Source of the DNA: a candidate division WOR-3 bacterium
GTDB lineage: Bacteria; Hydrothermota; Hydrothermia; Hydrothermales; JAJRUZ01
Direction of reading: 5' to 3'
Assembly (NCBI GenBank): GCA_039804025.1
Contig: JBDRZP010000013.1
Span: 1 to 64,000, forward strand
DNA: 64,000 nt
Shown here one piece after another: positions 13,085 to 17,727 of this stretch. Below the pieces are notes generated by a model that was not told the DNA's origin, did not search any database, and saw nothing but the letters and a program-made list of their open reading frames with translations. The translations under genes were made by a program, and so were the position numbers. The first letter of the stretch is position 1. Each line of letters begins with the position of its first letter.

Positions 13085-14374
13085 TTAAATAAAAAATCTT
13101 GAAAATCTTTTGATAATATCAATATGAGTCAAATCACTTTTAAATTTTCCCTTATCATTAAAAAAATCTTCAAAGACAGAAGGTAAATTTTGTTTGAGAG
13201 TTAGTTCTATAAAATTTTTATCACCTTTACTTAAAAGATAAAAAGAATAGATGAAATTAATTAGTTTTGAAATAAATGAAAATTCAGGTGCAATATAGGA
13301 AGCTTTTCTATAATACTCTTCTGCTTTTAAGAAGTCTTTTTTATAATAATAAAAAATAGCCGAATAAAGAAAATATTCCGATAGAAAAAGGTGATTATCT
13401 GATCCTTTAAAATTTGTTAAAAATTCCTGAACTTTTTCAAATTCTTCTTTTATTAAGAAATACTTAATGAGAGTTAAATCAATATTAGAATTGATATCCA
13501 TGAAGCAATACTTATTTCTAAATTTGACTAATTTTTTTACATATTTTTCTGCTTCACGAAATTTATTTTTATTAATGAGGATATCAATATAATCTATATA
13601 AATAAAAATCTTATAGAATTCAGGACCTTTAAATTTTTCAATATTTTTAAGTGCTTCAATTATAAATTTCTCAGCTTTTTCAAAATCTCCAAGATTTAAA
13701 AAACTTGCACTAATTTTTCTAAAAATTCTGTAATCATAATTTCTTTCCTTTGTTTTTTTTAAAACATCCTCACATATTTTTATGCATTCTTCAAAATCAC
13801 CTCTTACAAAGTGAATCATTGCAATATTTTCCATAATTCCCCTTCTGCTTGATTCAGAAATATTCATTTTTTCTGAAAGAATATAAGAAGTATTGAAGTG
13901 TTTTAAAGCATCTTCATAATTTGAAAAATGAAAGGATATTATACCTCTTAAATTCTCTATCTTTGATTTTATATAAATATCAGTTTCTTTTTCTCCCTTT
14001 TCTGTAAGTTCATAGCCATTTTCTAAAATTTTTAGAGCAATGTTAAATTTTTTTCTGTTAAAATAATATAGAGCAACGGTAAAATAATAAAAACTGTGAT
14101 ATTCCTTTTCAAGAGTATTTAAATCAAAATTCTTATACACCTCTTTGATTGATTCTTCTTCATGTTTAACACAATAAACTCTTGCAAGAAGAATTTTAAA
14201 AAGATTATCTTCAATATCTTTAATCTTATCAATTTCCTTTAAATAAGATTCAATTTCAATAAGAATATACACATTCTCATAAAGAAAAACAAAATTTTTT
14301 CTAATAAATTTAAAAATTTCTTTTAAATTTTTTTTCTTTAGATTATAATCAAAAAATTTAACAATATCTTTCAT
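13085..14374 (-). CDS. TPR-repeat protein, cytoplasmic
   Basis: This 429-residue all-alpha protein consists of tetratricopeptide-like repeats (YFNRKKFNIALKILENGYEL, YEDALKHFNTSYILSEKM, FEECIKICEDVLKKT, FEKAEKFIIEALKNIEK). There is no signal peptide or catalytic domain. I place the start at the ATG in the ATGA overlap with the rmlB stop (14371-14374); a GTG-type start seven codons earlier is possible but unneeded. It may be an adaptor. Role unknown. Confidence 0.7.
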   Translation of the reverse strand: MKDIVKFFDYNLKKKNLKEIFKFIRKNFVFLYENVYILIEIESYLKEIDKIKDIEDNLFKILLARVYCVKHEEESIKEVYKNFDLNTLEKEYHSFYYFTVALYYFNRKKFNIALKILENGYELTEKGEKETDIYIKSKIENLRGIISFHFSNYEDALKHFNTSYILSEKMNISESSRRGIMENIAMIHFVRGDFEECIKICEDVLKKTKERNYDYRIFRKISASFLNLGDFEKAEKFIIEALKNIEKFKGPEFYKIFIYIDYIDILINKNKFREAEKYVKKLVKFRNKYCFMDINSNIDLTLIKYFLIKEEFEKVQEFLTNFKGSDNHLFLSEYFLYSAIFYYYKKDFLKAEEYYRKASYIAPEFSFISKLINFIYSFYLLSKGDKNFIELTLKQNLPSVFEDFFNDKGKFKSDLTHIDIIKRFSRFFI

Positions 14375-15519
14375 TTTCGCAATCTGCTGTACCACGTTTC
14401 CAAAAAATTCTTAACTTTTTTATTTAGAAGTAATTCTCTATAAAAATAAAAATTTTCCTTATAAAATTCAAAAGTTTTTTTAAGAGCATCTTTAAATTTC
14501 CATTCAGGCTTAAAACCGAGTTCAAATATTTTCTTGCCATCCATTGAATATCTCCTGTCATGAGCAGGTCTATCCTTAATAAACTCAATCCCTTCCTCCT
14601 TATTTAATCCTCCTAATTTACAGATAAGTTCAGCGAGCCTGATGTTTTTTACTTCGGTGCTACCAGGTATGTTATACTCCTCACCAATTTTACCCTTTTT
14701 ATAAACAAGGTATATAGCCTTTACAGCATCTTCTATATAAATCCAGCTTCTTTTCTGATTTCCATCTCCATAAAGGGGAATTTTTTCTTTCATCAATACC
14801 TTCATAATAGAAAGGGGTATAAATTTTTCAGGAAACTGTCTTTCTCCAAAAACATTAGCAGGTCTTACTATGATTACAGGTATTCTGTAAGTTTTATAAT
14901 AAGAATAAACAATCCTATCAGCACTTGCCTTACTTGCAGAATATGGACTTGAGGGATAAAAAGGGTGATTTTCTTTTGCTTTTCCTTTTAAAATTTCCCC
15001 ATAAACTTCATCTGTTGATATATGAATAAACTTTCCCTTTTCTCCGTGAATTTCTCTGAAAGTATCAATTAAAAAATAAGTTCCCAGTATATCTGTAAAA
15101 ATGAATCTATGTGGATAAAGAATTGACCTATCAACATGGGTTTCTGCAGCAAAATGAAAAATATTATTTGAGTATTTCATAACAAGTTTTAATGGCTTTA
15201 CATTTGTAACGGAAGCTACAAGAAGAAAAATCTTTTCCTCACCTTCAAGAAATTTTTTTATTTCTTTTTCGAGATCTTTTTCTTTCAAAACTTTATAATT
15301 ACTTTTTAGAAAATTTTTTTTACCCTTGTAAATATCCTTGCCAAAGCCAGCATAAAAGATATTTTCCTCATTCAGATAAGGATAAAGGTTAAAAGGGTGG
15401 CCTGAATATTCAAGAGAATCATAGACAATTATTTTTGCATCCTTTTCCTTTTTTATCAAATATCTCACAAAATTAGAACCAATAAAACCAGCTCCACCTG
15501 TTACAAGGTAAATATTCAT
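14371..15519 (-). CDS. rmlB: dTDP-glucose 4,6-dehydratase-like SDR enzyme
   Basis: This extended short-chain dehydrogenase probably makes a 4-keto-6-deoxy nucleotide sugar for surface glycans. Visible are the NAD loop GGAGFIGSNF, HFAAETHVDRSI, the catalytic STDEVYGE (Asp-Glu) and YSASKASAD (Tyr-x3-Lys), RPANVFGERQFPEKFIP, GDGNQKRSWIY and KDRPAHDRRYSMDGKKI. These are RmlB-like throughout. At 382 residues it is about 30 longer than usual because of an insertion around residues 55-100, between the second strand and HFAAE, which replaces the normal GDI segment. No other rml gene is nearby. Confidence 0.85.
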   Translation of the reverse strand: MNIYLVTGGAGFIGSNFVRYLIKKEKDAKIIVYDSLEYSGHPFNLYPYLNEENIFYAGFGKDIYKGKKNFLKSNYKVLKEKDLEKEIKKFLEGEEKIFLLVASVTNVKPLKLVMKYSNNIFHFAAETHVDRSILYPHRFIFTDILGTYFLIDTFREIHGEKGKFIHISTDEVYGEILKGKAKENHPFYPSSPYSASKASADRIVYSYYKTYRIPVIIVRPANVFGERQFPEKFIPLSIMKVLMKEKIPLYGDGNQKRSWIYIEDAVKAIYLVYKKGKIGEEYNIPGSTEVKNIRLAELICKLGGLNKEEGIEFIKDRPAHDRRYSMDGKKIFELGFKPEWKFKDALKKTFEFYKENFYFYRELLLNKKVKNFLETWYSRLRK

Positions 15520-16262
15520 CTATAAAAGATAAAATTTTCTCCTTGTAAATTAAAAATTTTAACATTAAAGCCAAGATATTCACTAATAATTTCTTTTTTC
15601 TCAAAAATTTTATTTTTTTCCACAAAAAGCGTATTTCCATTTTCTTTTAGAAAAAGAAAATAATCAGAAAATTTAAGAGCAATATTAATATCATGTATTA
15701 CAAAAATTAAATTTTTATTTTCTCTTTTAACAATATTCTTCATAATATTAAAAATTAAAAAGGTATTTTCAAAATCAAGATGAAGACTTGGCTCATCAAG
15801 GAGAATAAGTTCAGGGTCCTTAACAAGAGATCTTGCAAGAAGAACCTTTTGTTTCTGACCACCTGAAAGTTCTGTAAATTTTTTATTTTTTAATTCATAA
15901 ATATCAAAAATTCTTAAAAAATAATCTAACTTTTCTTTATCAACTTTTGTATAAGGATAAAAACCGAGTTCAACCATTTCATAAACTGTAAAAGGAACAT
16001 CAGATTCATAAAACTGGGGCAAATAGGAAATTTTTTTTGCCCTTTCAAGAGGATCCATTTTAAAAATATCTTTTCCATCAAAATTAATCTCACCTTTTAA
16101 GGGTTTTAATACACCGGAAAGAACCCTTAAAAGTGTTGTTTTACCTGTTCCATTTTTACCGAGAATTGAAAGAATATCACCCTTTTTTAAATAAAAGGAG
16201 ACCCCCCTTAATACAGGGGGGTCTTTATAACCGGCGTAAATAGATTTTACCTCGATCTTGAT
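15516..16262 (-). CDS. ABC transporter ATP-binding protein, FecE/BtuD-like, with non-ATG start
   Basis: This ATPase of an iron-complex/B12-type importer is complete only if translation starts before the first ATG. The Walker A motif GKNGTGKTT lies upstream of the ATG at 16056-16058, which would remove 68 residues. Also visible are the signature LSGGQKQK, Walker B LILLDEPSLHLD and the switch VIHDI. No ATG, GTG or TTG occurs in frame upstream. The best start is AUC at 16260-16262 (giving xKIEVKSIYAGY, the normal family start, 248 residues) preceded by AAAGGA. It overlaps the upstream gene by 16 bp and rmlB by 4. No permease gene is present here. Confidence 0.8.
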   Translation of the reverse strand: MKIEVKSIYAGYKDPPVLRGVSFYLKKGDILSILGKNGTGKTTLLRVLSGVLKPLKGEINFDGKDIFKMDPLERAKKISYLPQFYESDVPFTVYEMVELGFYPYTKVDKEKLDYFLRIFDIYELKNKKFTELSGGQKQKVLLARSLVKDPELILLDEPSLHLDFENTFLIFNIMKNIVKRENKNLIFVIHDINIALKFSDYFLFLKENGNTLFVEKNKIFEKKEIISEYLGFNVKIFNLQGENFIFYR

Positions 16263-16546
16263 TTTGGTTTTATCCTTTGTATATCCCTTTGTCTTTCAGA
16301 TTCCTTTTTATTATTTTCAGTTTTTTCCTTGTAAGGAGTGTAAAATTTTCCTTCCCTATCCCTTAATCTTTTAAAGAATTTATCAGTTATTCCGTCACCA
16401 TCTCTATCAAGAGTATCTCTTTTAACTTTATAAATTATTTCACTTTTGAGCTCTACCCTTTTAGATTTTGATGATTCTGACTTTTTATTAATCTCTATTG
16501 AATGAAGTAGAAAAGGTGCAATAAGTAAGATTAAAATTTTTTTCAT
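16247..16546 (-). CDS. Small secreted protein with one DxDxDG calcium-type loop
   Basis: This 99-residue protein has a signal peptide (KKILILLIAPFLLHS), then a highly charged body with LDRDGDGITDKFF, a thrombospondin type 3/dockerin-like calcium-binding loop. The C-terminal half is rich in K, R and E. Its start overlaps the upstream DUF4384-like gene by four bases (ATGA), and its end overlaps the ABC ATPase start. The three genes are therefore coupled. Function unknown. Confidence 0.65.
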   Translation of the reverse strand: MKKILILLIAPFLLHSIEINKKSESSKSKRVELKSEIIYKVKRDTLDRDGDGITDKFFKRLRDREGKFYTPYKEKTENNKKESERQRDIQRIKPKSRSR

Positions 16547-17727
16547 CTCCTTGTCCTTTTTGTTTCTGATTTATTTTGAGGCAAAACTCCACCTTTTTTC
16601 AAATCAGTTTCAACTTTTTCCCTGTGAATTCTGGCTCCTTGTTCTCTTTGAATTCTACTTTCTCTTTCCTTTCTTAACTCCTGGCTTTTTATAGGATTAG
16701 AAACTCTTTTTCTGTAATCTTCTGATTCTTCCTTTTCCATCTCTTTATTCTCTTTTACTTTTTTGATATCTGACTCATAAATATTTTTTCCTTCATATTC
16801 CTTATATTCCCTTTTCCTTTCAACTTCAGTTTCTCTGATTCTTTTTTGTTCATGTTCTGGTCGAGTCTTTATTTCTCCTTTAGATTCCCTTATTCTTTCT
16901 TTTTCCATGTCCTTCCTGATTTCTCTTTTTTCAATCATCTCCCTTACAGGTTTACCTTCCACAACCCCTTTTTCTCTTACTCTTATCCTTGTTTCCTTTT
17001 CTATTTCCTGGAGACGGGTTCTTTTTTCAGGTGTAATTTCTCTTGTAAATTCCCACCTTGTTCTTATTCTGTATCTGGGAGGTGCATATTTTACATACCT
17101 TGGAACATAAACATATCTATATTCATAAACTCTTATTTCATATAAGGGACAAAAATCAAAATAAAAATGAACAAAAACATGCGGATGATGGCAATCGTAG
17201 CAATACCATGGTGCCGGATGATATACATAATACCTTGGAATTACATAATAACTTGTCCATGCGCCAAAATAAACCCTTGGAAACCAGAAGGGTGGTCTGA
17301 AACTGAAAACGAGAGCAAATCTTATATCATCATAATCATAATATATATAAGATTCAGGAGGCAGAGGTTCAAAACAATCAAGGGGCATATCATAAATTGG
17401 ATAGGGAACAACAACAGCATAAATATATTCAATACCTGGATCATAAGAAGAAGTCCATTCAATATCATCGTAAAAATCATCGGGTAAAACATAATGGACA
17501 CCTGCATGTATATATACAGGTCTTCCGGCAGGAAATATTAATTTAGTTCTTCCATTGGGGTCAATATTATATAAGTAAAGATAACCATCTACTTTTGAAA
17601 TAACATTAATTTTTAATCTTTCACCAGCTGTATATATAGACTTTGGACCACCTTCAACCCAGACATCCACCATCCCTGCCTTTAAGGCAAGGAATTGGAA
17701 AGCTAATATTAAAATTAACTTTTTCAT
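16543..17727 (-). CDS. Secreted DUF4384-like protein with charged C-terminal tail
   Basis: This 394-residue protein has a signal peptide (1-17) followed by a domain (18-110) with GERLKINVISKVDGYLYLYN and GRTKLIFP, typical of DUF4384 modules. Next come a Tyr/Pro/His-rich stretch (about 110-215, WYCYDCHHPHVFVHFYFDF) and a long Arg/Glu/Lys tail (215-394) with no obvious fold. DUF4384 modules occur in exported proteins and some secretion-associated kinases; the role here is unknown. A strong Shine-Dalgarno (AAGGAGG) precedes the ATG. A T-arm-like motif lies 26 nt upstream, inside the end of the preceding gene. Confidence 0.65.
   Translation of the reverse strand: MKKLILILAFQFLALKAGMVDVWVEGGPKSIYTAGERLKINVISKVDGYLYLYNIDPNGRTKLIFPAGRPVYIHAGVHYVLPDDFYDDIEWTSSYDPGIEYIYAVVVPYPIYDMPLDCFEPLPPESYIYYDYDDIRFALVFSFRPPFWFPRVYFGAWTSYYVIPRYYVYHPAPWYCYDCHHPHVFVHFYFDFCPLYEIRVYEYRYVYVPRYVKYAPPRYRIRTRWEFTREITPEKRTRLQEIEKETRIRVREKGVVEGKPVREMIEKREIRKDMEKERIRESKGEIKTRPEHEQKRIRETEVERKREYKEYEGKNIYESDIKKVKENKEMEKEESEDYRKRVSNPIKSQELRKERESRIQREQGARIHREKVETDLKKGGVLPQNKSETKRTRR

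Follow-up and report, generated by a model that had tools for sequence, protein, structure and literature searches.

A conserved ABC transporter ATPase gene without a usual start codon, and its probable translation from AUC at the end of an upstream gene

A gene for an ABC transporter ATPase (nucleotide-binding subunit, BtuD/FepC-like) in a candidate division WOR-3 bacterium has no usual start codon (ATG, GTG or TTG) ahead of its conserved domain, and this lack is shared by four related genomes, a TTG at residue 9 in one of them aside. An AUH codon (AUU, AUC or AUA) and the stop of the upstream gene keep their positions at the head of the gene, and a hairpin inside it is conserved beyond codon chance. 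We consider it likely, from comparison of these sequences, that a working ABC ATPase is translated from the AUH codon (AUC at 16262-16260) by coupled re-initiation and at low output, with the hairpin possibly attenuating its transcript. The window, the whole stretch of DNA that was analysed, comprises 64,000 nt of the genome here called G000, and the frames discussed lie on its minus strand.

The ATPase gene, its neighbours and its relatives

The ATPase gene spans 15516..16262 on the minus strand, with 248 codons from the AUC (16260..16262, minus strand) to the last sense codon and a TGA stop. The codons after the AUC read K-I-E-V-K-S-I-Y-A-G-Y, and the translation contains a Walker A motif (GKNGTGKTT), the signature LSGGQKQ and a Walker B motif (LILLDEP). 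Upstream, the frame is closed by an in-frame TGA (16296..16298, minus strand). There is no ATG, GTG or TTG between this TGA and Walker A, and the first in-frame ATG (16058-16056) lies beyond the motif. A weak Shine-Dalgarno-like site, AAAGGA (16273..16278, minus strand), stands 10 nt before the AUC. A sequence-only reading of the window had described this start region, motifs and coordinates included, and every element was found as it claimed. The protein scores 112.2 bits against PF00005, for which the Pfam cut-off is 25. The best NCBIfam models are ATPases of heme, Fe-dicitrate and F420-0 importers, all under cut-off, and the curated NCBIfam cut-off does not place the gene in the BtuD/FepC-type importer family (best 163.1 bits vs 261).

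The ATPase frame overlaps an upstream gene of 99 aa (16247..16546, minus strand), whose TAA stop (16247..16249, minus strand) falls on ATPase codons 5-6 (GTA A), a position shared by the four genomes. The 99-aa product has a hydrophobic, signal-like N terminus and a DxDGDG motif, and no match in Pfam or NCBIfam. Its gene is joined via ATGA to that of a DUF4384 protein (16543..17727, minus strand), the first of a conserved block, and the ATPase gene is joined via ATGA to a following dTDP-glucose 4,6-dehydratase-like gene (14371..15519, minus strand). The order DUF4384 protein, small secreted-like protein, ATPase and dTDP-glucose dehydratase-like gene is common to the four genomes.

One FecCD permease is encoded in each of G000-G004. 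In G000 the permease gene lies on contig C10, away from the window ATPase, and an ATPase gene adjoins the permease only in G004, where a BtuD/FepC-like ATPase with an ATG start follows it. In G000-G003 the permease sits with a BtuF-like gene, accompanied in G000, G001 and G002 by part of a TonB-receptor-like frame. Loci L107 and L109-L111 hold such BtuF-like and BtuC-like genes, lacking an adjacent ATPase in G000-G002 and having one in G004. No ABC ATPase directly follows FecCD in these four genomes in the 3.9 kb fetched, with frames read by eye; the G003 locus carries an ABC ATPase of a different kind on the opposite strand (also by eye). A permease without a following ATPase in G000-G003, but with one in G004, suggests that the window ATPase is plausibly its displaced, missing partner. 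A riboswitch search of the window and three FecCD loci gave nothing but three tRNAs above Rfam thresholds.

Among the 100 genomes searched, close orthologues of the ATPase occur only in the same family, with protein identities to G000 of 96% (G002), 60% (G001) and 56% (G003). A set of 36 named loci consisted of distant relatives and was left aside. The codon at the expected start is ATC in G000 and G002, ATT in G001 and ATA in G003. Comparison of orthologous starts thus agrees with the earlier claim that the AUC occupies the normal start position of the family, as AUC, AUU or AUA stands where relatives begin. In G000, G002 and G003, inspection of the frames gave no usual start ahead of the conserved domain. 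In G001 there is none before residue 9, and use of the TTG found there would remove the first strand. An in-frame stop lies just 4 codons before the AUH codon in G001 and G003, which leaves little room for an alternative start. In all four genomes the stop of the upstream gene is at +13 relative to the AUH codon. Residues 1-5 of the ATPase retain a beta-strand pattern (IKIEV, IKLQV, IQIQV), and the overlapping upstream frame is not conserved. The sole difference between G000 and G002 in the overlap leaves the ATPase residue unchanged but is non-silent in the other frame.

Could a genuine ATG have been deleted by an assembly or sequencing error? The genomes are incomplete and fragmented into many contigs, but mistakes at one site would be needed in four of them, and the comparison refutes this reading, to which we give a negligible probability. 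A truncated or dead gene, with a product only from the first ATG (or from TTG 9 in G001), is very improbable. Automated ORF calling would place the start at 16058 and yield 180 aa, but this product would be without Walker A, which is conserved in all four genomes, and the N-terminal 26 codons differ between G000 and G002 by one silent change and no amino-acid change. Over the gene as a whole these two genomes differ by 11 silent and 9 amino-acid changes (dS 0.078, dN 0.015; dN/dS about 0.2). An intact frame in all four genomes, the low dN/dS and the shared loss of the start indicate that the gene is alive and that its lack of a usual start is old. Assembly error and a frameshifted pseudogene, the two objections that the sequence-only reading had raised against itself, are ruled out, the former by the state of the relatives and the latter by the intact frame and by dN against dS.

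The start site, the overlap and the hairpin

The upstream stop overlaps the ATPase start region in the four genomes, as in termination-reinitiation gene pairs. A ribosome ending the 99-aa gene at its TAA would step back 13 nt and re-initiate at the AUH codon. With so weak a start, far less ATPase would be made than upstream gene product, and its synthesis may be sensitive to initiation factors. Where re-initiation failed, the hairpin with its U-rich tail would be free to form and might end the transcript; where it succeeded, the ribosome would open the hairpin. The TTG at residue 9 in G001 counts against this explanation, as does the weakness of the Shine-Dalgarno-like site, which is AAAGGA in G000, GAAGGG and nearer in G001, and without a clear form in G003. 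AUH accounts for about 10% of the codons here, and G000 and G001 both have it in 6.8% of aligned columns; because such codons are common, one of them near the ATPase start is weak evidence alone.

The start might lie just inside instead, at AUH codon 3 or at GUA codon 5, where GUAA would overlap the upstream stop in the manner of AUGA. GTAA is identical in the four genomes, and stop-start tetramers are the commonest junction in the G000 genome, with 49 ATG starts that have a stop at +1. We regard such a start as unlikely, as GTA and TAA are each conserved for separate reasons, the one as a strand residue and the other as the upstream stop. Moreover, the strand pattern persists at residues 1-4, codon 3 is CTA in G001, and the remaining rare starts in this study use AUH or CUG, never GUA. 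We infer from the sequences that initiation is at AUH codon 1, and not at codon 3 or GUA 5, together with re-initiation, low output and attenuation.

The hairpin lies in ATPase codons 13-22 (16199..16224, minus strand) and has the shape of an intrinsic terminator: a G+C-rich stem of 10 pairs (7 of them G-C), a 6-nt loop and a T-rich tail, CCTTTTATTT. A fold at the same site has 12 pairs in G001 and 9 in G003. Synonymous recodings drawn from the codon usage of 19 window genes were equally stable in 6 (G000), 5 (G002), 7 (G001) and 4 (G003) cases per 20000, where G000 and G002 are not independent. In a sample of 368 genes with 30% G+C, no other 45-nt fold within the first 120 nt is as stable. 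Pair counting found pairing in 28 of 30 cells, with one compensatory change; covariation is not significant, with 171 of 500 shuffles as high, because there are only three distinct rows. The pattern ACCCCCYN{4,10}RGGGGGT is found at two places in the G000 genome. The stem begins 22 nt past the stop of the 99-aa gene, the expected location for a terminator of that gene, and it may add attenuation of the ATPase transcript.

A downstream hairpin is also what would be looked for if the ATPase were made solely as a -1 frameshift fusion with the 99-aa protein, like the ORF pairs of insertion sequences. The overlap is in phase -1 in all four genomes, and Z_ZZN tetramers are present in the overlaps (by eye). 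Stimulators of -1 frameshifting stand 5-9 nt downstream of a slippery heptamer. No X_XXY_YYZ heptamer was seen by eye in the three distinct overlaps, and the hairpin is more than 22 nt beyond any pre-stop site, too distant to aid a slip before the stop. In a fusion, moreover, a cytosolic ATPase would be headed by a signal-like N terminus. The other rare-start genes described below are in different phases (stop offsets +2, -4 and -2), so a single frameshift rule does not fit. We judge such a fusion to be quite improbable.

Rare starts elsewhere in the lineage

Stop-to-stop frames of G000 (the window and contigs C1, C2, C3 and C4; 621 kb) were compared with G001. From 391 ORF pairs, 15 were dropped by script (6 with N in the subject, 6 with the core >60 aa in, 2 off the stretch and 1 short). 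By script, the 376 pairs kept comprised 349 with a usual start in both genomes and 27 that were flagged. Hand triage rejected 18 flags: 11 had a Met just past the cut, six were explained by TTG (MurA, an LptD-like gene, a TPR-like gene, RibF, DHPS and a membrane protein), and C3:76214 was ambiguous. The wider search for conserved N termini proposed in the sequence-only reading thus gave 9 of 376 orthologue pairs in which the G000 gene has no usual start.

These nine are the ATPase, RuvC, a diacylglycerol-kinase-like protein, DUF488, a small membrane protein, a signal-peptide TPR-like protein, a phosphomannomutase-like protein, a methyltransferase and a metallo-beta-lactamase fold protein. Five lack a usual start there in G001 too: the ATPase, RuvC, the diacylglycerol-kinase-like gene, the small membrane protein (ATA in G000, ATT in G001) and the signal-peptide protein (ATT and ATA, with a TTG 12 codons further in G001). 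The metallo-beta-lactamase fold gene has AUU in both genomes, and in G001 also an in-frame ATG upstream. The methyltransferase has AUU in G000 and GUG in G001. The phosphomannomutase-like gene (G000:C4:75969-77300, minus strand; L254-L255) has a CTG start just past a tRNA-like 3' end, and TTG in G001. RuvC (G000:C2:163671-164165, minus strand; L126:3671-4165) has an ATA that overlaps the YebC stop as ATAA, the same in G001 and G002. Across 28 genomes its start is ATA in G000-G002, TTG in G003, usual in 19 others (ATG in G004) and unreadable in 3; G052 and G058 show no usual start in the 16 codons printed, but have an in-frame ATG just upstream. The diacylglycerol-kinase-like gene (G000:C2:145279-146184, plus strand; L125:5279-6184) has an ATT that overlaps the upstream stop as ATTAG. 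Across 17 genomes its start is ATT in G000-G002, usual in 11 and unreadable in 3.

With start sites picked by hand, 8 of the 9 rare-start genes have the stop of an upstream ORF at -4 to +13 of the start, compared with 132 of 362 shared usual starts (Fisher p 0.002). Junctions are frequent at UUG and GUG starts as well (34 of 64), so part of the excess may go with weak starts generally.

Within the window, comparison of 36 ORFs with their relatives in G001, G003 and G004 gave the ATPase as the only gene with a conserved N terminus and no usual start; of the two further flags, one was a shadow ORF and the other a frame whose ATG is conserved. Comparison with G002 (58 ORFs) added a lipoprotein gene (60811-60422, minus strand; signal ...FISC), which is probably the other rare start (AUU/CUG) of the earlier reading. 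Its start region has ATT CTG directly after a stop in G000 and ATT TTG in G002, and an in-frame TTG (G001) or GTG (G004) lies upstream of the signal.

The same pipeline was applied to a control genus of the same class (G006 and G016 vs G011), where 2 of 93 pairs were dropped and 91 kept. Five were flagged: two were real, namely the infC AUU in the two query genomes (one gene), and three had a Met soon after. The difference between 9 of 376 and 1 gene of 91 is not significant with so small a control, so that a raised rate depends on comparison with general knowledge. Starts are about 80/12/8% AUG/GUG/UUG, and CUG starts account for 0.024% of ORFs in 69 genomes, in figures cited by one paper (PMC9845219).

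The hint of the earlier reading that infC might show changed start discrimination was borne out only in part. The gene is present in single copy in each of G000-G004. Its start in these genomes is ATG and not AUU, the codon found in the control genus, and many relatives in the class have AUU or AUC after a strong Shine-Dalgarno site. IF3_C scores are 81-84 bits in G000-G004 vs 98-117 in the 15 further genomes that gave a match. IF3 of this order (L102 in G000; G000:C25:5125-5382) has a small deletion and an insertion in the C domain. A link between loss of the infC AUU brake and gain of AUH starts is speculation. The initiator tRNA was considered as another source of altered start choice; its pattern of three G-C pairs in the anticodon stem, GGGCTCATAACCC, occurs once in each of G000-G004, so no anomaly was seen there.

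Comparison with known systems and meaning

AUH starts are a known rare kind, of which the AUU of infC is the textbook case. To our knowledge infC and pcnB are usually taken to be almost the only genes with such starts, which gene callers ignore. The ATPase resembles infC, which encodes IF3 (AUU, AUC or AUA), and pcnB (AUU) in its conserved AUH start, which in those genes limits expression. It differs in that it is no translation-factor gene, as infC is, and in that its start lies inside an overlap with an upstream gene.

Conserved AUH starts, a feature shared with the ATPase, are also described for Staphylococcus aureus ccpN (AUA), cvfC1 (AUU) and citZ (AUA), where expression from AUA and AUU was about 10% of that from AUG (PMC13009471). 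The S. aureus genes have an extended Shine-Dalgarno sequence, whereas the ATPase site is weak and overlapped by an upstream stop. Streptomyces sigR is likewise an ordinary gene with a rare start that annotation misses; its start is GTC and thus not AUH, and it is repressed by IF3, which represses rare starts (PMC5472188). Termination-reinitiation at ATGA and TGATG gene pairs, as described in PMC6728339, also involves a stop and a start that overlap or nearly do so, but here the start is AUH and the junctions read AUAA, AUUAG, AUAG and UAAUU. In IS911, orfB has an AUU start within a -1 overlap, going by a title cited in PMC4227106. The ATPase resembles it in a start within an overlap with the upstream gene, but has no slippery heptamer that we could see and no transposase. 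What is new is the number of AUH starts in this lineage and their junction habit; in the open full-text literature, no report was found of abundant AUH starts in a bacterial lineage, nor of AUH at stop-start junctions.

We tentatively propose, as an idea that we find possible rather than probable, that this lineage follows a relaxed start-codon rule. AUU, AUC, AUA or CUG would open about 2% of its conserved genes, chiefly at sites that the ribosome reaches from an upstream stop, after infC gave up its AUU brake. The weak start of the ATPase would in addition gate a terminator within the gene, as an attenuator set by the start codon. If this is true, annotation drops or truncates real genes in the lineage (9 of 376 conserved pairs, RuvC included), and the switch of infC to AUG is a candidate cause of the AUH starts. 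The junction pattern would imply a testable claim, that a terminating ribosome is less strict on start codons than a freshly recruited one.
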